From contig JAGOQJ010000001.1 in the NCBI GenBank assembly GCA_017991595.1, forward strand, positions 668,410 to 732,409: a DNA stretch of 64,000 nt. Reading direction: 5' to 3'. Position numbers and translations under genes: made by a program. The notes beneath the pieces were generated by a model. The model was not told where the DNA came from. It did not search any database and was given only the letters and a program-made list of their open reading frames with translations. The stretch comes from Candidatus Didemnitutus sp. (lineage in GTDB: Bacteria; Verrucomicrobiota; Verrucomicrobiia; Opitutales; Opitutaceae). Shown piece after piece: positions 1,822 to 64,000 of this stretch. Position 1 is the stretch's first letter; each line of letters opens with the position of its first letter.

Positions 1822-3072
1822 ATGAAACGGTTCCTCTACGAGTTCTCCGAGTCCGTGCGCATTGCGGCGACGCAGATTCGCGCGAACAAGATGCGCTCCG
1901 TCCTCACGGCCCTCGGCGTCATCATCGGCGTCGTGGCCGTCACGCTCATGGGCACCGCCATCCGCGGCATCGACAAGGGCTTCGCCAACAGCCTCGCCCT
2001 GCTCGGCGACGACGTGCTCTACGTGCAGAAATGGCCCTGGGGCCCCGTCGAGGATTGGTGGAACTACGTCAACCGCCCGAACCTCGCGCCCGACCACGCC
2101 GACAAACTCAACCGCATCATCGAGAGCACGCACGACTCGCTCCTCGCCTTCGCCGTGCCGGTCGTCGGACGCGGCTCCGTCATCAAGGTCGGCGATGCCA
2201 AGGTCAGCGGCGTCTTCACCATCGGCACCACCGCGCCCTATGCGCAGATGACCGGCACCGAATACAAGGAAGGCCGCCTCTTCAACGAGACCGAGGCCGA
2301 GTCCGGTGCGCAGGTTTGCGTGCTCGGCTACGACGTCGCCGAGGCACTGCTGCCCAATCGCGACCCGATCGGCGAGACCGTGCTTATCAGTGGCCAGCCC
2401 TTCAAGGTCGTGGGCGTCTTCGCCAAGCAGGGCGAATTCCTCGGTATGTTCAGCTTCGACAACCAGGCTGTCATCCCGCTGAAGGCGTTCCAGAAGCACT
2501 TTTCCACCCGACGCGGCGCCGAGATCCGCGTGAAGGTCATCGACAAGACGCAGCTCGCCGCCGCCAAGGACGAACTCACCGGCGCGATGCGCCGCGTGCG
2601 CGCCCAGCTCCCGGGCGAGCGGAATAATTTCAACATCAACGAGCAGGAGGCCTTCAAGGCCCAGCTCGATCCCGTGAAGGGCACGATCGCCACCATCGGC
2701 TTCGTCATCACCGGCCTCGCGCTCTTCGTCGGTGCGATCGGCATCATGAACATCACCTTCGTCTCCGTGAAGGAGCGCACGAAGGAGATCGGCACGCGCA
2801 AGGCCCTCGGTGCGCGCCGCCGGTCGATCCTGCTGCAATTCCTCATTGAGGCTGTCTCCATCTCGCTCATCGGCGGGCTCGCCGGCCTCGCGCTTACCAT
2901 GGTGCTCGTGCAGGTGGCGGCTCAGGCCTTCCCCAGTTTCCCGGTCAGCATTTCCCTCAGCATCGTGGCGCTGGCCGTCGGCACCTCGGTCTTCGCCGGC
3001 GTCGCCGCCGGCTTCGTGCCCGCCCTCGGCGCGTCGCGCCTCGATCCCGTCGTGGCCCTGCGTTACGAGTGA
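1822..3072 (+). CDS. ABC transporter permease, MacB/FtsX family (first)
   Basis: A 416-residue permease with the MacB layout: an N-terminal membrane helix (about residues 23-45, SVLTALGVIIGVVAVTLMG), a large periplasmic MacB_PCD-like domain, and three C-terminal helices carrying the FtsX core. The conserved segment KERTKEIGTRKALGARRRS couples the core to the ATPase. It starts 3 bases after the ATPase stop and is followed 7 bases later by a second permease of the same kind. The two presumably form a heterodimer rather than the MacB homodimer. The transported substrate cannot be told from sequence. Confidence 0.92.
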   Translation: MKRFLYEFSESVRIAATQIRANKMRSVLTALGVIIGVVAVTLMGTAIRGIDKGFANSLALLGDDVLYVQKWPWGPVEDWWNYVNRPNLAPDHADKLNRIIESTHDSLLAFAVPVVGRGSVIKVGDAKVSGVFTIGTTAPYAQMTGTEYKEGRLFNETEAESGAQVCVLGYDVAEALLPNRDPIGETVLISGQPFKVVGVFAKQGEFLGMFSFDNQAVIPLKAFQKHFSTRRGAEIRVKVIDKTQLAAAKDELTGAMRRVRAQLPGERNNFNINEQEAFKAQLDPVKGTIATIGFVITGLALFVGAIGIMNITFVSVKERTKEIGTRKALGARRRSILLQFLIEAVSISLIGGLAGLALTMVLVQVAAQAFPSFPVSISLSIVALAVGTSVFAGVAAGFVPALGASRLDPVVALRYE

Positions 3073-3079
3073 CCTCGCC

Positions 3080-4327
3080 ATGAAAATCACCGAAGTCTTC
3101 CGCATGGCCGTCGGCTCCCTCGGGGTGAACAAGCTCCGCTCGGGCCTCACGATGTTCGGCATCACCATCGGCGTGTTCACCGTCATCGGCGTCATGACCG
3201 CCGTGACCGCGCTGCGCAGCTCCATCGAGACCGGTCTGAGTTTCTTGGGGACGAACATGTTCCAGTTCGCCAAGTTCCCCGTCACGGGCGGCGGCGGCGA
3301 CGAGGGACCCCGGCGGCGCCGCCTCGAGTTGCGGCGCGATATCACGCTCGATCAGGCGATGCGCTACCAGCAGCTGATGGCCGAGACCACGAACGTCATC
3401 TGCCTGAAAGTCTTCAACAACGGCGCACCCGTGCACGCCACCTATGGCGGCCGCAAGACCCAGCCCGGCGTCACCTTTGGTGGCAGCAACGAGCACTTCC
3501 TCGCCGCCAACCAGTATACGATCGAAGCCGGCCGCAACTTCACCGCCGACGACATCGAATACGGCCGCCCCGTCATCATCATCGGGCAGGAGCTGGTCAC
3601 GCGCCTCTTCCCCTCGGAGAACCCGCTCGAAAAGATCATCAAGATCAAGGATCGCACCTACACGGTCATCGGCACCTTTGCCTCGAAGGGTAACGCCTTC
3701 GGCGGCAACAGCGATGCCATCGGCATGATTCCGATCACGCGCTTCATCACGGATTTCGGCGCCGAGCGCATGACCGTCAACATCGCCACCCAGGCGCCCA
3801 CGCAGACGCTCTACAACGAGACGCTCGACAAGGCCGTCACCGCCATGCGCATCGCCCGCGGCCTGAAGGCCGAGCAGGAAAACGATTTCGAGATCTACTC
3901 GAACGACTCGCTCCTCTCCGCCTTCGCCAAGGTGGCCGACGTCATCGCCGCGGGGTCGTTCCTCATCAGCGGCATCGCGCTGCTCGCCGCCGGCGTGGGC
4001 ATCATGAACATCATGCTCGTCAGCGTCACGGAGCGCACCAAGGAGATCGGCATCCGCAAGTCCCTCGGCGCCCGGCGCAAGTCGATCCTCACCCAATTCC
4101 TGATCGAGGCCGTCACCATCTCGCTCATGGGCGGCGTGGCCGGCATCCTGCTCGGCATCGGGGTGGGCAACGGCCTCGCGATGCTGCTCAAGGCGCAGGC
4201 CGTGATCCCGTGGGATTGGGCCGGCATCGGCCTCGTCGTCTGCTCGGGCATCGGCATCGGCTTCGGTTTTTATCCGGCCTGGAAAGCGGCGCGCCTCGAC
4301 CCGATCGAGGCCCTGCGCTTCGAGTGA
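3080..4327 (+). CDS. ABC transporter permease, MacB/FtsX family (second)
   Basis: A 415-residue paralogue of the preceding permease with the same plan: N-terminal helix (about residues 21-43), extracytoplasmic domain, three C-terminal helices and the loop TERTKEIGIRKSLGARRKS. The frame is open upstream into the first permease, but the ATG at 3080 fits the family and leaves a normal 7-base spacer. The periplasmic domain contains a short Gly/Asp/Arg-rich insertion (GGGGDEGPRRRR) near residues 70-85 that the first permease lacks. Last gene of the four-gene export operon. Confidence 0.91.
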   Translation: MKITEVFRMAVGSLGVNKLRSGLTMFGITIGVFTVIGVMTAVTALRSSIETGLSFLGTNMFQFAKFPVTGGGGDEGPRRRRLELRRDITLDQAMRYQQLMAETTNVICLKVFNNGAPVHATYGGRKTQPGVTFGGSNEHFLAANQYTIEAGRNFTADDIEYGRPVIIIGQELVTRLFPSENPLEKIIKIKDRTYTVIGTFASKGNAFGGNSDAIGMIPITRFITDFGAERMTVNIATQAPTQTLYNETLDKAVTAMRIARGLKAEQENDFEIYSNDSLLSAFAKVADVIAAGSFLISGIALLAAGVGIMNIMLVSVTERTKEIGIRKSLGARRKSILTQFLIEAVTISLMGGVAGILLGIGVGNGLAMLLKAQAVIPWDWAGIGLVVCSGIGIGFGFYPAWKAARLDPIEALRFE

Positions 4328-54889: not shown

Positions 54890-55822
54890 ATGCCTGTCGT
54901 CGTGCCCACTTGGAAAATCGCGCTGCTGTGGCTGGTTGCCGCGGCGTGCGCGTTGCCGTGGGTGACGCCGCCGCTGGCGTTGTTGGCGGGGCTTTTGTTC
55001 GCGCTGTTCATCGGCAACGGCGACGCGGCGCGCGCGGGGCGGGTGCAGAAATATCTGCTGCAGGCCTCGGTGGTCGGGCTCGGGTTCGGCATCCCGTTCG
55101 CGGCGGTCGTGCAGGCGGGCTCGACGGGCGTGGTCACGACGGCGGCGACACTGGCGGGCACGCTGGCGCTGGGTGTGTGGCTGGCGCGTCGGCTGGCGGT
55201 GGAGCGGACTACGGGTTGGCTGATCTCCACCGGCACGGCGATTTGCGGTGGGAGCGCGATCGCGGCGATGGGCCCTGTGCTCGGGGCGGAGGGGCGCACG
55301 ATGTCCGTGGCGCTTGGTTGCGTCTTCGTGCTCAACGCCGTGGCGCTGTTTGTCTTTCCGCCGATCGGGCACTGGGTCGGGCTGACGCCGGAGCAGTTCG
55401 GTTACTGGGCGGCGATCGCGATCCACGACACCAGCTCGGTGGTGGGCGCGGCGGCGCGGTATGCGCCCGAATCGCTGGCGATCGCGGTGCCGGTGAAGCT
55501 GGCGCGCGCGTTGTGGATTTTACCCTTGGTGGCGTGGATGGCGTGGCGCGAAAAGCAGCGCGGGGCGAAGGCGGCGATGCCGTGGTTCGTGCTGTTGTTC
55601 CTCGCGTCTTCGTTGCTCGCTTCGTGGGTGCCGGCGGGTGCACCGTTCTATGTCTGGCTCGTGCGCGCGGCGAAGGCCGGGCTGGCGATCACGCTCTTCC
55701 TTATCGGCGCGGGTCTCTCCCGGGAAAACCTGCTGCGCGTGGGCTGGCGGCCGTTCGCGCTCGGCATAGCCTTGTGGCTGGTGGTGAGCGGGGTGGCGCT
55801 GATTATTGTGCGCGCGGCGTGA
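54890..55822 (+). CDS. YeiH/UPF0324 family putative permease
   Basis: A 310-residue membrane protein with about ten hydrophobic helices. The family signatures are seen: LIGFGIPFAAVVQ-like GLGFGIPFAAVVQAG, STGTAICGGSAIAAMGPVLG, and AIAIHDTSSVVGAAARYAP. The family is often called sulfate exporter-like (YeiH), but transport has been shown for few members. It reads away from queA and ends about 100 bases before the ilv leader. Confidence 0.88.
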   Translation: MPVVVPTWKIALLWLVAAACALPWVTPPLALLAGLLFALFIGNGDAARAGRVQKYLLQASVVGLGFGIPFAAVVQAGSTGVVTTAATLAGTLALGVWLARRLAVERTTGWLISTGTAICGGSAIAAMGPVLGAEGRTMSVALGCVFVLNAVALFVFPPIGHWVGLTPEQFGYWAAIAIHDTSSVVGAAARYAPESLAIAVPVKLARALWILPLVAWMAWREKQRGAKAAMPWFVLLFLASSLLASWVPAGAPFYVWLVRAAKAGLAITLFLIGAGLSRENLLRVGWRPFALGIALWLVVSGVALIIVRAA

Positions 55823-55891
55823 AAATGCCGCCGGGCGCGCGTGCTGCGGTGCCTTGTCATAATGGGAATACGCCGTTGACCGCGTGTTTTC

Positions 55892-55897
55892 TAATAT
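55892..55897 (+). promoter_or_regulatory. Possible -10 element (TAATAT) of the ilv leader transcript
   Basis: TAATAT lies 28 bases upstream of the leader ATG in an unusually AT-rich stretch. A TTGACC at 55876-55881 is only 10 bases away, too close for a standard sigma-70 -35 pair, so the promoter is not settled. Confidence 0.3.
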
Positions 55898-55925
55898 CCA
55901 TGCATTAGGCCGTCTCTCGCATCGA

Positions 55926-56027
55926 ATGACCCACAGCTTTCAGCTGCCGCTCAACGTCCTCGCCGCCCTTATTATTGCGGTCGTCATTCTGCTTACCCCC
56001 TCCACCGGGCGGCTTTCGCACACTTAA
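55926..56027 (+). CDS. ilv leader peptide
   Basis: A 33-codon frame from ATG 55926 to TAA 56025-56027. The peptide begins MTHSFQLPLNVL and contains the run LIIAVVILL at residues 15-23, that is, Leu, Ile and Val control codons (55968-55994) just as in E. coli ilv leader peptides. The run is followed by TPSTGRLSHT. It lies directly ahead of the ilvD gene and of the attenuator hairpins. It would be translated to sense charged tRNA for Ile, Val and Leu. Too short to be a functional enzyme; the role follows from context and codon content. Confidence 0.85.
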   Translation: MTHSFQLPLNVLAALIIAVVILLTPSTGRLSHT

Positions 56028-56094
56028 AGAGACCATCAAATTCCTCTCCAAAGTATCGAAAAGGCCGCCCAAAACCGGGCGGCTTTTGTTTTTT
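55962..56094 (+). promoter_or_regulatory. Transcription attenuator of the ilv operon
   Basis: Four segments can pair alternately. Segment 1 is GCCGCCC (55962-55968), 2 is GGGCGGC (56007-56013), 3 is GCCGCCC (56064-56070) and 4 is GGGCGGC (56077-56083). Pairing 3:4 is the terminator and pairing 2:3 the antiterminator. The control codons follow segment 1, and the leader stop lies 11 bases after segment 2. A ribosome stalled at the control codons masks segment 1 and frees 2 to pair with 3; one that reaches the stop masks 2 and lets 3:4 form. This is the logic of amino-acid attenuation. Direct experimental evidence is not available. Confidence 0.82.
56060..56094 (+). terminator. Attenuator (intrinsic terminator) in the ilvD leader
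   Basis: The stem GCCGCCC/GGGCGGC (56064-56070 with 56077-56083) is extended by a G-T and three A-T pairs, with the loop AAAACC. It is followed by TTTTGTTTTTT (56084-56094). It sits 66 bases before the ilvD start and is an unusually strong terminator inside an operon leader, as expected for attenuation. Confidence 0.9.
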
Positions 56095-56159
56095 CCGATG
56101 AAAACGCACCCTGCCTCCTCCACCTCCAACCGCGCGCTCACGACGCGCCGCTCCTGCGC

Positions 56160-57830
56160 ATGAACGATCTCCGCAGAAATTCCCGCGTCGTCACCGAAGG
56201 TCCCCACCGCGCACCCGCGCGCGCCATGATGAAGGCGGTCGGCTTCACCGACGAGGACCTCCAGAAGCCGCTCATCGGCATCGCCAACACCTGGACCGAA
56301 ATCGGGCCCTGCAATTTCCACCTCCGCGAACTCGCCGAGCACGTGAAGGCCGGCATCCGCGCCGCCGGCGGCACGCCGCTCGAGTTCAACACCGTCTCCA
56401 TCTCCGACGGCATCACGATGGGCACCGAGGGCATGAAGACCTCGCTCATCTCCCGCGAGGTCATCGCCGACTCCATCGAGCTCGTCGCGCGCGGCAACTC
56501 CCTCGACGGACTCGTCTGCCTCTCCGGCTGCGACAAGACCAACCCCGGTGTCATGATGGCGCTCGCGCGCGTCGACATCCCCGGGCTCGCTCTCTACGGC
56601 GGCTCGATCAACCACGGCGAACACAACGGCAAGGCCCTCACCGTGCAGGATGTCTTCGAAGCCGTCGGTGCGTTCTCCGCCGGCAAGATCGACGCGAAGG
56701 AATTCGCCTGCGTCGAAAACTCCGCCTGCCCGACCGCCGGCTCCTGCGGCGGCCAGTTCACCGCCAACACCATGGCCACTGTCATGGAGGCGATCGGCAT
56801 CTCGCCCGCCGGCGCCAACGGCATCCCTGCGGTCGATCCGGCCAAGAGCGCCGCGGCCCGTCGCTGTGGCGAACTCGCCGTCGAGCTCGTCCGCCAGGAC
56901 CTGCGTCCGTCGAAAATCTTCACCCGCCCGGCCTTCGAGAACGCCATCGCGGCCGTCGCCGCTTCCGGCGGCTCGACCAACGCCGTGTTGCACCTCCTCG
57001 CGCTCGCCCGTGAGGTCGGCGTGCCGCTGACGCTGGAGGACTTCGACCGCATCAGCGCCAGCACGCCCACCATCGCCACGCTCAAGCCCGGTGGTCTCTA
57101 CACTGCCACCGAGATGCACGCCGCCGGCGGCATGACGCTCCTGCTGCGCCGCCTGCTCGAGGGCAACTTCCTCACCGGCGGTTGTCCGACCGTGACGGGT
57201 CAATCGCTGGCCGCCGAAGTGCGCAACGCGCCCGAGACGCCCGGCCAGCTGGTCATCCGTCCGACCGACAAGCCCTTCAAGGTGCAGGGCGGCCTCGTCA
57301 TCCTCCGCGGCAACCTTGCCGAGGAAGGCTGCGTGCTCAAGGTCGCCGGCAGCAGCGTGCAGAAGCACCGCGGCCCGGCGCGCGTCTTCAATTGCGAAGA
57401 GGATGCGATGGCCGCCGTCAGCGCGCAAAAGATCAAGGCGGGCGACGTCGTCGTCATCCGCTACGAAGGGCCCAAGGGCGGCCCCGGCATGCGCGAGATG
57501 CTCGGCGTCACCGCCGCCCTCGCCGGCGCGGGTCTCGCCGACTCGGTCGCGCTGCTCACCGACGGTCGTTTCTCCGGCGCCACTCGCGGCATGTCGATCG
57601 GCCACGTCGCCCCCGAGGCGGCCGTGGGCGGGCTCATCGCCTTCGTGCACGAGGGCGACATCATCGAGATCGACGTCGCCGCGCGCCGCCTGCACCTCGA
57701 CGTGCCCGCGGTCGACTTCAATTACCGCCGCCAGGGCTGGACGCGCCCGACGCCCCGCTACACGCGCGGGGTCATGGCGAAATACGCCGCCACCGTCTCG
57801 TCCGCCGCCGAAGGCGCCGTGACGACCTGA
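56160..57830 (+). CDS. ilvD: Dihydroxy-acid dehydratase
   Basis: A 556-residue IlvD/Edd-family enzyme. It dehydrates 2,3-dihydroxy-isovalerate and 2,3-dihydroxy-3-methylvalerate to the 2-oxo acids of valine and isoleucine. Fe-S ligands are in SGCDKTNPG and CPTAGSCGGQFTANTM; the C-terminal phrases ALLTDGRFSGATRG and IGHVAPEAA are complete. First structural gene of the operon, behind the attenuator. The ATG is at 56160. Confidence 0.96.
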   Translation: MNDLRRNSRVVTEGPHRAPARAMMKAVGFTDEDLQKPLIGIANTWTEIGPCNFHLRELAEHVKAGIRAAGGTPLEFNTVSISDGITMGTEGMKTSLISREVIADSIELVARGNSLDGLVCLSGCDKTNPGVMMALARVDIPGLALYGGSINHGEHNGKALTVQDVFEAVGAFSAGKIDAKEFACVENSACPTAGSCGGQFTANTMATVMEAIGISPAGANGIPAVDPAKSAAARRCGELAVELVRQDLRPSKIFTRPAFENAIAAVAASGGSTNAVLHLLALAREVGVPLTLEDFDRISASTPTIATLKPGGLYTATEMHAAGGMTLLLRRLLEGNFLTGGCPTVTGQSLAAEVRNAPETPGQLVIRPTDKPFKVQGGLVILRGNLAEEGCVLKVAGSSVQKHRGPARVFNCEEDAMAAVSAQKIKAGDVVVIRYEGPKGGPGMREMLGVTAALAGAGLADSVALLTDGRFSGATRGMSIGHVAPEAAVGGLIAFVHEGDIIEIDVAARRLHLDVPAVDFNYRRQGWTRPTPRYTRGVMAKYAATVSSAAEGAVTT

Positions 57831-57866: not shown

Positions 57867-59627
57867 ATGAAACTCACCGGAGCAGAAATCATCTGGGAAT
57901 GCCTCATCCGTGAAGGCGTCGACGTCGTGTTCGGTTACCCGGGCGGAGCCATCCTCCCAACCTACGACGCGATGACGAAATACCCGCAAATCCATCACGT
58001 CCTCACCCGCCACGAGCAGGGCGCCACGCACATGGCCGACGGCTATGCGCGCGCCAGCGGCAAGGTCGGCGTCGCCATCGCGACGTCCGGCCCTGGCGCG
58101 ACCAACATGGTCACCGGCATCGCCACCGCGATGATGGACTCCTCGCCGATCGTTTGCATCACCGGCCAGGTCGGCTCGAAGGCGCTCGGCACCGATGCGT
58201 TTCAGGAAACAGACGTCACCGGCGTCACGCTGCCCGTCACGAAGCACAACTACCTCGTCACTCGCGCCGGCGACATCGCCCGCGTGCTGCGCGAGGCGTT
58301 CTACATCGCCAAGAGCGGGCGTCCCGGCCCCGTGCTCGTCGACATCACCAAGGACGCGCAGCAATCCACCGCCGAGTTCGATTGGGACGGCGTCGCGCCG
58401 AAGCTCCAGGGCTATCGCCCGAACCTCCGCGCCTTGCCGACGGAATACGCGCGCGCCCTCGATTTGATCAACTCGGCCAAGCGCCCCGTCATCCTCGCCG
58501 GCCAGGGCATCAAGCTCTCGGGCTCCACCGCGCAGGTGCTGAAGTTTGCCGAGACCGCGCAGATCCCGATCGCCGTCACGCTGCTCGGCCTCGGTTCCGT
58601 GCCGGCCGCGTCGTCGCTCAACCTCGGCATGATGGGCATGCACGGCGAGGCGTGGGTCAACTCCGCCATCCAGCAGGCCGACTTGCTCATCGCGCTCGGC
58701 ATGCGTTTCGACGATCGCGTCACCGGCAACCTCAAGACCTACGCGCCGCACGCGAAGAAGATCCACGTCGAGATCGATCCCTCCGAGGTGAACAAGAACG
58801 TGCCGATCGACGTCGCCCTCATCGGCGACCTCCGCGAGGTGTTGGAGGAGATCCAGCCCGCCGTGAAGGCCGCCGACCGCGCCGAGTGGTGGGCCAAGAT
58901 CGCCGAGATGAAGGGCGACTCCGCCGTGCGCGACATCCAGTCGTTGCCCGACAACGGCCACCTCTACGCCGCGCACGTCATCAACGACCTCTGGCGCGCC
59001 ACCAAGGATCGCGACACCATCGTCGTCACCGACGTGGGCCAGCACCAGATGTGGGAAGCGCAGTATTACCGCCACGAGAAGCCGCGCTCGCTCATCACCT
59101 CCGGCGGCCTCGGCACGATGGGCTTCGCGCTCCCCGCCGCCATTGGCGCCAAGTTCGCCTGCCCGGAGAAGGATGTGTGGGTCGTCGTCGGCGACGGCGG
59201 CTTTCAGATGACTTCGTGCGAGCTCGCCACCGCGGAGCAGGAAGGCATCAAGGTCAACGTCGCCATCATCAACAACGCCTTCCTCGGCATGGTGCGTCAG
59301 TGGCAGGAATTTTTCTACGACAAGCGCTACGCCGCCACGCCGATGACCGGTCCCGACTTCGTCAAGCTGGCCGAGGCTTACCGCCTCACCGGTCTGCGTT
59401 GCGACAAGCGCCCCGACGTCAACGCCACCGTGGCGAAGACTCTCGCGGACAAAAAGACGGTCGTCGTCGACTTCGTCGTCGAGAAGGAAGACGCCGTTTT
59501 CCCGATGGTCCCCGCCGGCGCCGATCTCGACAAGATGATCCGCCGTCCGAAGCAGGACGTCATGCTCGAATCCGGCTCCGACAAGGAGTGGGAGATGCCC
59601 TCCGCCCCGGCGACCAAGAACCGCTAA
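57867..59627 (+). CDS. ilvB: Acetolactate synthase, catalytic (large) subunit
   Basis: A 586-residue thiamine-diphosphate enzyme. The conserved glutamate of the N-terminal domain is in LTRHEQGATHMADGYARA, the central FAD-binding-like domain follows, and the TPP-Mg motif is GDGGFQMTSCELAT...NN near residue 448. It makes acetolactate and acetohydroxybutyrate, the first common step. The regulatory subunit follows 12 bases downstream. Length and motifs are normal. Confidence 0.96.
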   Translation: MKLTGAEIIWECLIREGVDVVFGYPGGAILPTYDAMTKYPQIHHVLTRHEQGATHMADGYARASGKVGVAIATSGPGATNMVTGIATAMMDSSPIVCITGQVGSKALGTDAFQETDVTGVTLPVTKHNYLVTRAGDIARVLREAFYIAKSGRPGPVLVDITKDAQQSTAEFDWDGVAPKLQGYRPNLRALPTEYARALDLINSAKRPVILAGQGIKLSGSTAQVLKFAETAQIPIAVTLLGLGSVPAASSLNLGMMGMHGEAWVNSAIQQADLLIALGMRFDDRVTGNLKTYAPHAKKIHVEIDPSEVNKNVPIDVALIGDLREVLEEIQPAVKAADRAEWWAKIAEMKGDSAVRDIQSLPDNGHLYAAHVINDLWRATKDRDTIVVTDVGQHQMWEAQYYRHEKPRSLITSGGLGTMGFALPAAIGAKFACPEKDVWVVVGDGGFQMTSCELATAEQEGIKVNVAIINNAFLGMVRQWQEFFYDKRYAATPMTGPDFVKLAEAYRLTGLRCDKRPDVNATVAKTLADKKTVVVDFVVEKEDAVFPMVPAGADLDKMIRRPKQDVMLESGSDKEWEMPSAPATKNR

Positions 59628-59639
59628 CCCACAACCGTC

Positions 59640-60212
59640 ATGTCGAAACACACTCTCATCGCCTACGTCGAGGACGTGCCCGGTGTCCTGAACCGCGTCG
59701 CCTCGCTGTTCCGCCGCCGCAACTTCAACATCGATTCCCTCACCGTCGGCCGCACCGAGCAGCCGGGCGTGTCGCGTCTCACCGTCGTCGTCGACACCAC
59801 CGCGTCCGGCGCCCGCATCGTCGAGGCCAACCTCTATAAACTCGTCAACGTGCTCCGCGTCGACGACCTCACGCACAAGCCCGCGCTCACCCGCGAACTC
59901 GGCCTCGTGAAGGTCAAGGTCGCCCCCGAGACGCGCGCCCAAGTGTTGCAGCTCGTCGATGTCTTCCGTGCCCGCGTGGTCGACGTCGACGAGGAGTCGC
60001 TCGTCATCGAGGTCACCGGCACGCCGGAAAAGATCGGCAAGTTCGAGATGGTGCTCCGTCCCTACGGCATCCTCGAGCTCGTCCGCACCGGCAGCGTCTC
60101 GATGGCCCGCGGCCACGATCCGCTCACCGCCAACCCGCCGCTCGTTCGCGCGGAGGTGAATGGCCTCTCCGCCGAGGAGCACGCCGAGCCCGGCGTCTCC
60201 ATGTCCGTTTAA
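59640..60212 (+). CDS. ilvH: Acetolactate synthase, regulatory (small) subunit
   Basis: A 190-residue subunit. The N-terminal ACT domain ([41 protein letters not shown]) confers valine feedback sensitivity in relatives. The C-terminal domain contains [21 protein letters not shown]. It partners the IlvB product. The C terminus is somewhat extended. The symbol ilvH versus ilvN cannot be decided from sequence alone. Confidence 0.94.
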
Positions 60213-60252
60213 CCCACCATCGAATCCCACCAACCCTCACTCCTCTTTATCC

Positions 60253-61263
<1,011 letters not shown>

Positions 61264-61607: not shown

Positions 61608-63211
61608 ATGTCCTCGAATTACATTCGCATCTTCGACACCAGCCTGCGCGACGGTGAGCAAGCTCCCGGCGCCTCCATGACCTCGGCCGAAAAGCTTGAG
61701 GTGGCCCGGGCGCTGGCGCGACTTGGCGTGGATGTGATCGAGGCGGGTTTCCCGGCGGCGTCGCCCGACGACCTCGCTGCCGTGCAGGCCATCGCCGCCG
61801 AGGTTGGGCAGGCTCCGGTCGAGGGCCGTCCGCAGTCCGAGCCGCCGATTGTCTGCGGTCTCGCGCGCTGCACGCGCAACGACATCCAGACCGCGTGGGA
61901 GGGCGTCAAGGGCGCCAAGCACCCGCGCATCCACACGTTTCTCGCGACGAGCGACATCCATCTCCAGCACAAGCTCCGCATGACGCGCCCGGAGGTCGTC
62001 GCGCGCGCGACGGAGATGGTCGCCTTCGCCAAATCGCTCTGCGCCGACGTCGAGTTTTCCCCCGAGGACGCCGGCCGCAGCGATCCGGAGTTTCTCTACG
62101 AAGTGCTCGCCGCCGTCATCAAGGCCGGCGCGACCACGCTCAACATCCCCGACACCGTCGGTTACACGCTGCCCGACGAGTTCGGCGCGCTCATCGCCGG
62201 CATCATCGCCAACACGCCGGGCGCAAAGGACGTCATCATCTCCGTTCACTGCCACGACGATCTCGGCATGGCCGTCGCCAACAGCCTCGCCGGTCTCCGT
62301 GCCGGCGCGCGTCAGGCTGAGGTCACCGTCAACGGCATCGGCGAACGCGCCGGCAACGCCTCGCTCGAGGAACTCGTCATGGCGCTCCGCACGCGCGCCG
62401 ACAAACTCGGCCTGCAGACTGGTATCGACGCCAAGCAGCTCTTCCGCGTCAGCAAACTCATCTCCCGCACCACGAGCTACCCCGTCCCGCCGAACAAGGC
62501 CATCGTCGGCGCCAACGCCTTCGCGCATGAGTCCGGCATCCATCAGGACGGCATGATCAAGAACGCGCAGACCTACGAGATCATGCGCCCCGAGGACGTC
62601 GGCGCGACGCAGACCACGCTCGTGTTGGGCAAGCATTCCGGTCGCAACGCCGTCTCGAAGCGTCTCGCCGAGCTCGGTTATCCGCTCGAGGGCGAAGCAC
62701 TCGCGCGCGCCTTCGCCGAGTTCAAGAAACTCGCCGACCGCAAGAAGTCCGTGCACGACGCCGACCTCATCGCGCTCGCCAGCGACGAGCGCACGCAGGC
62801 GCCCGAGCTCTGGACGCTCCAGGATCTCCAAGTCGCCTGCGGCACCACCGGCCTCCCGACCGCGACCGTCCGTCTCAAGGGCCCAGACGGCAAGTTGCAT
62901 GTCCAGGCCGCCGTGGGCACGGGCCCGGTCGACGCCACTTACAAGGCGATCGACCACATCGTCCGCACGCACGTGCAGCTGCTCGAGTTCGTCGTCAGCG
63001 CCGTCACCGAGGGCATCGACGCGCTCGGCGAAGTGTCCGTGCGCGTGCGCCAGGACGACCAGCGCTCCAGCCACGGGCACGGCACCGACACGGACATCAT
63101 CGTCGCCAGCGCGAAGGCCTACCTTGCCGCGGTGAACCTCGTGCTCTCCCGCCAGACCGGCGCGCCCGTGCACGCCCAGAAGTCCAGCGTTCCTGCCGAT
63201 CAACCTGTTTC

Positions 63212-63215
<4 letters not shown>
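61608..63215 (+). CDS. leuA: 2-isopropylmalate synthase
   Basis: A 535-residue LeuA, the committed enzyme of leucine synthesis, condensing 2-oxoisovalerate with acetyl-CoA. The catalytic barrel begins [13 protein letters not shown]; the HMGL signature is [15 protein letters not shown]-like ([18 protein letters not shown]) and the motif [14 protein letters not shown] follows. A C-terminal LeuA dimer/regulatory domain is complete. It overlaps the following cimA by ATGA, indicating coupled expression. Confidence 0.95.

Positions 63216-64000
<785 letters not shown>

Follow-up and report, generated by a model that had tools for sequence, protein, structure and literature searches.

Attenuation of transcription through the translation of a leader peptide is known mostly from enteric bacteria and actinobacteria. 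In enterobacteria, the ilv leaders encode a peptide that is led by a Shine-Dalgarno sequence and carries a run of Ile, Val, and Leu codons, with its stop near segment 2 and an antiterminator formed by segments 2 and 3. An excerpt of PMC1183508 names ilvGMEDA and ilvBN as attenuated operons of enterobacteria. For the IlvL leader of ilvBNC in Corynebacterium (ilvB-II motif), excerpts of PMC11857589 and PMC10272879 place the start codon one nucleotide from the transcription start, and describe leader translation and control codons that were proven by mutation and a terminator that overlaps the antiterminator. The ilvB-OMG motif has 41 representatives in various phyla and contains probable BCAA/Thr uORFs, for which attenuation has been proposed (excerpt of PMC10272879). 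In Actinobacteria, the ilvB leaders include short ORFs in which Ile, Val, and Leu codons form runs, together with a terminator, and in Streptomyces coelicolor the replacement of codons that might be regulatory was without effect (both from an excerpt of PMC1262725). Finally, the Veillonella ilvD motif (73 representatives, Veillonella only) is given in part of PMC8632094 as a weak riboswitch candidate with little covariation. In open-licence PubMed Central, we found no paper on such leaders in Verrucomicrobia, Opitutaceae, or Anaerolineae, and none in Chloroflexi or Chloroflexota among the matches listed; a 2010 survey of attenuation (Lopatovskaya et al., as cited in an excerpt of PMC4833913) may mention them. 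The main text of a survey of premature terminators (PMC2965389) has no word starting with chloroflex, verrucomicrob, opitutus, or ilv.

The window analysed here is a stretch of 64,000 nucleotides from Candidatus Didemnitutus sp. (Opitutaceae, Verrucomicrobiota); its IlvD shares 99% identity with the IlvD of a metagenome-assembled genome that bears the name Candidatus Didemnitutus. Its sequence and the modelled folding of its RNA point with high probability to a ribosome-mediated transcription attenuator in control of an ilvD-ilvB-ilvH-ilvC-leuA-cimA cluster (Table 1). An earlier note on this DNA had proposed that an operon starting with ilvD, likely verrucomicrobial, is preceded by an attenuator with a leader peptide. 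This core of the proposal stands. The system extends beyond Verrucomicrobiota: in Anaerolineae, ilvD is widely preceded by leaders of this type. The 33-codon leader with the run LIIAVVILL is present as claimed. Among the ORFs of 12-40 codons on both strands of the 64 kb that have at least seven Ile, Leu, or Val in nine residues, it is the only one followed by a terminator; the two other starts that pass this test belong to one ORF near 38.7 kb, which lacks a terminator. All three Ile codons of the leader are ATT, a codon that accounts for 4.9% of Ile in seven genes of the window, where CTT accounts for 3.7% of Leu. Past the end of the window lie leuB, a LysR-type regulator on the opposite strand, leuC, and leuD. 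On the other side of the leader, a yeiH-like gene (113.7 bits against a family cut-off of 232.6) has its end at 55822, some 240 nt short of the hairpin.

Table 1. Features of the putative attenuator and of the downstream genes, in coordinates of the window.
Feature	Position	Strand	Remarks
TGTCATA element, 14 nt before the TTGAC box	55855..55861	+	no second TGTCATA-N(8-26)-TTGAC in the window; none in 100 shuffles
TTGACC, probable -35 box	55876..55881	+	
Leader ORF	55926..56027	+	33 codons and TAA (56025-56027); peptide MTHSFQLPLNVLAALIIAVVILLTPSTGRLSHT
Segment 1 of the earlier note, GCCGCCC	55962..55968	+	present in the window; not conserved
Control codons CTT ATT ATT GCG GTC GTC ATT CTG CTT (L I I A V V I L L)	55968..55994	+	
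Candidate upstream partner of segment 2 (alignment consensus), GCGGTC in the window	55977..55982	+	mostly GTCGTC in the Lacunisphaera-like group
Segment 2, GGGCGGCT (GGGCGGC at 56007), antiterminator 5' arm	56007..56014	+	within Gly-Arg-Leu codons
Intrinsic terminator hairpin, -20.3 kcal/mol	56060..56087	+	segment 3 GCCGCCC 56064-56070; segment 4 GGGCGGC 56077-56083
T-rich terminator tail	56084..56094	+	
ilvD, dihydroxy-acid dehydratase, first structural gene	56160..57830	+	
ilvB, acetolactate synthase large subunit	57867..59627	+	
ilvH, acetolactate synthase small subunit	59640..60212	+	
ilvC, ketol-acid reductoisomerase	60250..61263	+	
leuA, 2-isopropylmalate synthase	61608..63215	+	
Citramalate synthase-like gene (cimA)	63212..64000	+	extends past the window end; visible part 382 bits against a cut-off of 450

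The leader is conserved in the family. A search with 301 bases of leader DNA matched 13 of 57 genomes, i.e., 12 of the 13 genomes of the genus (the window's own included) and one of another genus, where the match (L013) is short and looks unrelated. Eleven of the 12 congeneric matches precede an ilvD of the window's type, and in G002 a related leader lies ahead of another gene; G012, a genome that is 74% complete, matched neither the leader nor IlvD. When loci were instead recovered through relatives of IlvD, all 20 from Opitutaceae had the leader. The alignment of orthologous leaders that the earlier note had called for comprises 25 distinct Opitutaceae sequences, 23 of which were trimmed for structure analysis. 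Every one of the 25 has an in-frame ORF of 32-34 codons rich in Ile, Leu, and Val, GGGCG in its last third, and a terminator; the same ORF and terminator occur in 11 further strong matches of the family search, some of which apparently repeat the same species. At the control positions Ile, Leu, and Val replace one another among relatives, and the residues before the run vary more widely. One Ile position is ATT in all 13 Lacunisphaera-like and all 11 Didemnitutus-like rows. Within the ORF, the larger gaps of the alignment measure 3, 9, and 15 nt, all multiples of three, whereas the spacer between the stop and segment 3 varies from 22 to 36 nt, which argues that the ORF was kept as a reading frame.

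All 25 Opitutaceae ilvD leaders have TTGAC upstream, at a distance of 39-51 nt from the ATG, but lack a good -10 box. In the window, a sigma-70 scan of 55700-56300 returned no full promoter, and the best -10 hexamer after TTGACC matches three of six positions. A simple pattern for Shine-Dalgarno-like motifs found none before any of the 25 leaders. With neither this motif nor a full sigma-70 promoter found, the transcription and translation of the leader are presumptive; its 5'UTR is likely short, judging by the sequence. GTCATA or TATGAC, in either orientation, lies within 110 nt upstream of 19 of the 25 ilvD leaders and five of nine DAHP synthase leaders (see below), mostly 19-29 nt ahead of TTGAC, start to start, and is possibly an activator site or a promoter part.

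We built an RNA model from the Opitutaceae leaders only (R1). Its 20 places above 90 bits in a search of 200 genomes of the family all have the leader and a window-type ilvD, and 95 of the 200 genomes match at E ≤ 0.05. We also read 20 weaker places by eye: a DAHP synthase-like gene follows the leader at 13 of them, ilvB follows it at one (L188), another place lies ahead of a small DUF6538-like gene (L199), and L192, L193, L195, L196, and L197 resemble ordinary terminators. In 387 Verrucomicrobiota genomes, R1 matched 39 at E ≤ 1e-3, 15 of them in the family, and the nine places above 100 bits are all within two Opitutaceae genera. We read 15 loci of this phylum search: four are from Opitutaceae (DAHP synthase follows at L170, L172, and L275, ilvB at L171) and 11 from outside the family, ten of which look by eye like ordinary terminators after an ORF, the other one (L271) being misplaced on a cut contig. 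The L188 locus (2569-2667; G021, another Opitutaceae genus) has a BCAA leader, MNFVVVSLILGLVLVIIGTHDQLDGKEVRVTR, and a terminator ahead of an ilvB whose product is 77% identical to the window's IlvB; this genome has no IlvD match at E ≤ 1e-100. The leaders ahead of the DAHP synthase-like gene are rich in Phe and Tyr (e.g., MLRSFAYYFFAFAGFFAPRIPGGCLEA), are followed by a GCCGCCC...GGGCGGC-type terminator, and occur in several Opitutaceae genera (L180-L187, L189-L191, L194, L198, L275). At L198, the one locus run, the gene scores 276 bits against an HMM cut-off of 335. A script detected a Phe/Tyr leader at 11 of 30 DAHP loci, one of them doubtful, and missed at least two that are visible by eye. 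The window's own genome has no match to DAHP synthase at E ≤ 1e-60.

The small DUF6538-like protein (Pfam score below cut-off; L130:5653-6105, L131:4398-4820, and L132:4490-4804 on the minus strand) occurs in 30 of 57 genomes, with the consensus NPNHHLWNNNGTWYVHYTVHPTPxTKxRIRxSL...ARxRRD. The window's own genome has three copies: one after the leuD that ends the ilv-leu cluster, one behind a riboswitch-like region, and one behind a leader peptide. A single family is thus found downstream of several amino-acid sensors. A SAM-I/IV riboswitch-like element precedes the gene at L136:4171-4306 (minus strand; 37.9 bits against 41.1 in Rfam) and is similar by eye to regions of L131, L135, L138, L139, L142, L145, L146, L148, and L149; at gathering score, no SAM element was found in the ten loci searched. 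Between yeiH-like and DUF6538-like genes, L009, L014, and L015 carry a related leader (e.g., NDTTSKHVVVILFAPIAGRLSHT) whose tail and terminator are the same, and in L017-L019, L132, and L134 a different leader with a TPW(Y/F) motif precedes the DUF6538-like gene.

The four seven-base segments that had been described in the window, the last two forming a terminator with a T-run, were all found where they had been placed, and a terminator scan returned an 11-pair stem at 56060-56087 followed by GTTTTTT. The leader region folds with a z-score of -2.78 relative to shuffled sequences, only one of 200 being equally good. Its minimum free energy structure has 2:3 nested in 1:4, and its centroid has 1:2 together with 3:4; the energy of the antiterminator in the window is -23.9 kcal/mol and that of the terminator is -20.3 kcal/mol. 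In the Opitutaceae alignment, segments 2 and 3 are paired in 97.7% of cells (4/176 unpaired), and the terminator is paired in 99.2% and has two pairs that are doubly changed. Since segments 2 and 3 are nearly invariant in this family, covariation is uninformative there. The geometry put forward earlier holds for the control codons, their spacing to segment 2, the stop codon, and the terminator, and fails for a conserved segment 1 at 55962. The region 55956-56020 folded alone does form the expected 1:2 helix (-17.7 kcal/mol). Yet in longer RNA free of ribosomes the probability of this pairing is 0.00-0.02, and in the alignment only 78.6% of its cells are paired, one pair is unpaired in 12 of 22 sequences, and none is doubly changed. 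In the RNAalifold consensus, segment 2 is instead paired with the region of the Val codons (99.1% of cells paired, no double changes). Folding of the window does not support this conserved pairing (probability of 0.00 in its own ensemble), which leaves the region a candidate only. Because both partners have near-zero probability in the folding of the window, no segment 1 is established, and any protector helix is conjectural.

We then modelled transcripts that end before segment 4, taking as the first free base the one 12 nt past the first A-site base. In the window, the probability of 2:3 is 1.00 with the A site at codons 12-24, 0.55 at codon 25, and 0.00 from codon 26. The flip falls between the last control codon (23) and the stop (34). 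In this model, the position of the ribosome switches the antiterminator off between the control codons and the stop. This is the case in 25 of 25 Opitutaceae leaders when the main control run is considered (in L034 and L037 the script had mistaken a stray Val behind the run for the last control codon): the last codon with a probability of at least 0.5 is 22-27, and the stop is 33-35. The aromatic leaders behave similarly, as all eight that were computed flip three codons past the last Phe/Tyr codon (nine were given; L190 was left out because the script found no terminator). When no ribosome is present, a transcript that extends as far as segment 3 adopts 2:3 with a probability of 1.00, and the model therefore predicts read-through when translation is absent. 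In textbook attenuators, the lack of leader translation leads to termination. Once segment 4 is present, the terminator is favoured at equilibrium even behind a stalled ribosome (probability of 3:4 of 0.79-0.89), so that the switch must be kinetic.

Comparison and computation show the ORF with its codons, segments 2-4 and the spacing between them, and, in homologues, the covariation of the antiterminator. With these parts, regulation probably proceeds as follows. RNA polymerase would make a short 5'UTR and the leader ORF, with a ribosome trailing behind. When Ile-, Val-, and Leu-tRNA are charged, the ribosome would reach the TAA at 56025 and mask segment 2, letting segment 3 pair with segment 4 and transcription terminate in the T-run at about 56090. 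When Ile, Val, or Leu is scarce, the ribosome would stall on the codons at 55968-55994; segment 2 (56007-56014), just past its footprint, would be free to pair with segment 3 before segment 4 exists, and the polymerase would continue into ilvD. The efficiency of termination and the identity of the most important amino acid are presumptive in this scheme.

In Anaerolineae (Chloroflexota), this type of leader recurs upstream of ilvD at L038, L039, L040, L042, L043, L045, and L049; its runs are exemplified by LIVVVLIVVLII, and a terminator is present as well. Applied to 40 of the 60 non-Opitutaceae IlvD loci, the Opitutaceae model R1 finds all seven of these leader-bearing type A loci, with E from 1.6e-9 to 1.3e-3. 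It also matches L047 (1.4e-4), which has a terminator and no leader. Six of the seven leader loci score better than that; therefore, the weakest one (L038) does not count alone. With a second model made from the seven Anaerolineae leaders (R2), 130 of the 396 Anaerolineae genomes searched gave a match at E ≤ 1e-4. When we read 27 new loci, ilvD (23) or ilvB (3) was downstream in all but L310, which has no ilv gene in reach, and the leader ORF was present in 24, the exceptions being L300 and L316 (cut, with shifted coordinates) and L308 (no ATG start). Among weaker second matches in the seed genomes (L287-L289), all with no ilv gene in reach, L287 has an I/L/V-rich leader and the others look like plain terminators. 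In many Anaerolineae leaders, segment 2, GGTTAGGATGGC, pairs with GCCGCCCTAACC, which is the 5' arm and loop of the terminator. The two arms change jointly: GTTTGAGGCGGC goes with GCCGCCTCAAAC in L308, and GGTTGGG goes with CCCAACC in L038, L039, L305, and others. In 29 leaders, with relatedness ignored, the pairing of each segment 2 with its own segment 3 has a mean of -20.0 kcal/mol, compared with -16.7 (sd 0.39) for permuted partners, and none of 20,000 permutations was as low; this test included L310 and omitted L300 and L316 (cut) as well as L312, L313, and L315 (ahead of ilvB). The covariation expected of orthologous leaders is thus borne out by these Anaerolineae homologues, the Opitutaceae being almost invariant. 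A large upstream helix is also predicted in Anaerolineae. Of 22 leaders given to the ribosome scan, 20 were computed (L042 and L305, the latter with no terminator detected by the script, were left out): the last codon with a probability of at least 0.5 is 21-35 in 17 of them, and 0.5 is never reached in three. TTGAC-16-TATAAT is found in all 17 Anaerolineae leaders scanned for promoters (the table left out L039, L040, L042, L298, and L305-L315), with an implied start 11-17 nt before the ATG. L039 has no TTGAC within 110 nt upstream, and L040 has a single one, at -11. In two Thermoflexales loci, L046 (about 3050-3245) and L047 (about 272-451), ilvD is preceded not by a BCAA leader but by a terminator and then an ORF of some 60 residues; the ORFs of the two loci are similar and end in WV.Q(Q/R)MFDHYNG.

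The distribution of the leader over two phyla raises the question of its origin. Outside Opitutaceae, the nearest IlvDs are those of Anaerolineae, 65-72% identical to the window's; the other Opitutales genera that had a match reach only 45-50% identity with their best IlvD. In the IlvD tree, the 21 window-type rows form one clade (support 100), joined by eight Anaerolineae rows (99) and then by L046 and L047 (95); 19 rows of other Opitutales and 23 second-type Anaerolineae rows stand apart (100). This is a quick tree with SH-aLRT support only, made from 90 of 130 rows (seven duplicates and two thirds of L050-L099 were dropped), and the program warned of long branches meeting between distant groups. 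The order ilvD-ilvB-ilvH-ilvC-leuA is common to both phyla where the loci extend that far. As the window's IlvD groups with some Anaerolineae and is far from other Opitutales, operon and attenuator probably crossed together, either from an Anaerolineae-like donor or both from a third party. Joint transfer is the simplest reading of tree and gene order, not a proved one, and we infer its direction from the nesting and from the spread of the element in Anaerolineae. IlvC is 67-68% identical to the window's in L039 and L040 only and 30-32% identical in the other Anaerolineae loci reaching it, so parts of the operon have been exchanged. Moreover, the Anaerolineae leader precedes both types of IlvD, and it is therefore not tied to one lineage.

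A rival account, which we regard as unlikely but worth weighing, is that the attenuator arose separately in Opitutaceae and Anaerolineae, with only the operon genes, or ilvD, being transferred. Segment 2 does differ between the two (GGGCGGC and GGTTAGGATGGC), the presence of the leader before two distant Anaerolineae IlvD lineages makes it separable from one ilvD type, and the match of R1 to the leaderless L047 means that weak matches can be mere terminators. Against this, a model that knows only Opitutaceae leaders recovers all seven Anaerolineae ones, six above L047, and the place of the leader, the composition of its core, and the gene order are common to both. On balance, we lean slightly towards the transfer of a complete ribosome-sensing attenuator with ilvD-ilvB-ilvH-ilvC-leuA as one cassette between Anaerolineae and Opitutaceae, which would have kept its logic on arrival together with a nearly leaderless translation start devoid of a Shine-Dalgarno motif, and whose architecture would have been reused for aromatics (DAHP synthase) in Opitutaceae. 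Such logic would survive transfer, because it needs only the ribosome, RNA polymerase, and aminoacyl-tRNA, and no trans-acting factor. After acquisition, the antiterminator probably became shorter, a helix that had extended into the loop of the terminator being reduced to GGGCGGC:GCCGCCC. We hold the transfer of the cassette for less likely than we otherwise would because L039 and L040, the nearest by IlvB and IlvC, lack the TTGAC-TATAAT promoter of the others.

Other readings question the attenuator itself. The leader could encode a small functional membrane peptide, the terminator being incidental: its core is strongly hydrophobic, and the Didemnitutus-like rows are largely conserved, silent sites included. 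However, the residues vary within Ile, Leu, and Val in the run and more widely before it, the GGGCG of the Gly-Arg codons is kept at the RNA level in 25 of 25 leaders, and the DAHP synthase leaders have the same architecture and carry Phe/Tyr instead, all of which makes this reading very improbable. Even less credible is the choice between 2:3 and 3:4 by a riboswitch or an RNA-binding protein, with the ORF in a secondary role. Such a device would fit the 2:3 state of ribosome-free RNA, the sub-threshold SAM-I/IV-like element ahead of another gene in the same genus, and the control of ilvB by ppGpp riboswitches in some bacteria (excerpt of PMC10272879). Yet the conserved part upstream of segment 2 is a reading frame, and at gathering score Rfam gave only tRNA in the window, with no leader, T-box, or riboswitch family, and only a SAM element elsewhere in L045 among eight related loci. 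Below threshold, there were only sub-threshold matches at E ≤ 10 in the window region and L10_leader, Phe_leader, and RcsR1 at E ≤ 1 in L290, L308, and L312. No ilv-named family appeared for the window, L038, L039, L042, L045, and L049 at gathering score, or for L290, L308, and L312 at E ≤ 1, in a copy of Rfam that may lack ilvB-OMG. We rejected a riboswitch or a known leader family on this lack of Rfam matches. Finally, it is just as hard to credit that the hairpin terminates the yeiH-like gene upstream and that the ORF is a chance frame: such a gene was found upstream at only five of the 25 aligned loci (the window, L002, L003, L005, and L006), leader and terminator persist at the other 20, where none was found in the 0.6-4 kb or so examined upstream, the ORF is in frame in all 25, and in Anaerolineae it covaries with the terminator.

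Our study thus describes a conserved, covarying family of putative leader-peptide attenuators in two phyla for which we found no earlier report. It offers a likely case of regulation carried with its operon across phyla, a testable example of attenuation with no Shine-Dalgarno motif, and a means to annotate leader peptides and BCAA/aromatic regulation in many uncultured genomes. How does it compare with known systems? It resembles the enterobacterial ilvGMEDA and ilvBN leaders in 1) the run of Ile, Val, and Leu codons; 2) a terminator before a BCAA operon; 3) the stop near segment 2; and 4) the 2:3 antiterminator. It differs from them in that the leader has no Shine-Dalgarno-like motif and probably a short 5'UTR, the operon starts with ilvD and includes leuA, no segment 1 is established, and no Rfam family matches. 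The likeness to enterobacteria drawn in the earlier note is hence right as to the logic of attenuation, whereas the features of the translation start are more like those of Corynebacterium ilvL. With the latter, as far as the excerpts describe it and by description rather than sequence, the system shares a BCAA leader and an overlapping terminator and antiterminator, but IlvL is a 15-codon peptide ahead of ilvB in another phylum. From the same partial sources, ilvB-OMG has in common a BCAA-rich uORF and proposed attenuation but sits ahead of ilvB, the actinobacterial ilvB ORFs, unlike the window's, overlap the candidate terminator (PMC1262725), and the Veillonella ilvD motif is likewise a cis element with a possible terminator ahead of ilvD. 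The mechanism looks classical, as in known attenuators; what looks new is the family, together with its hosts and its transfer.
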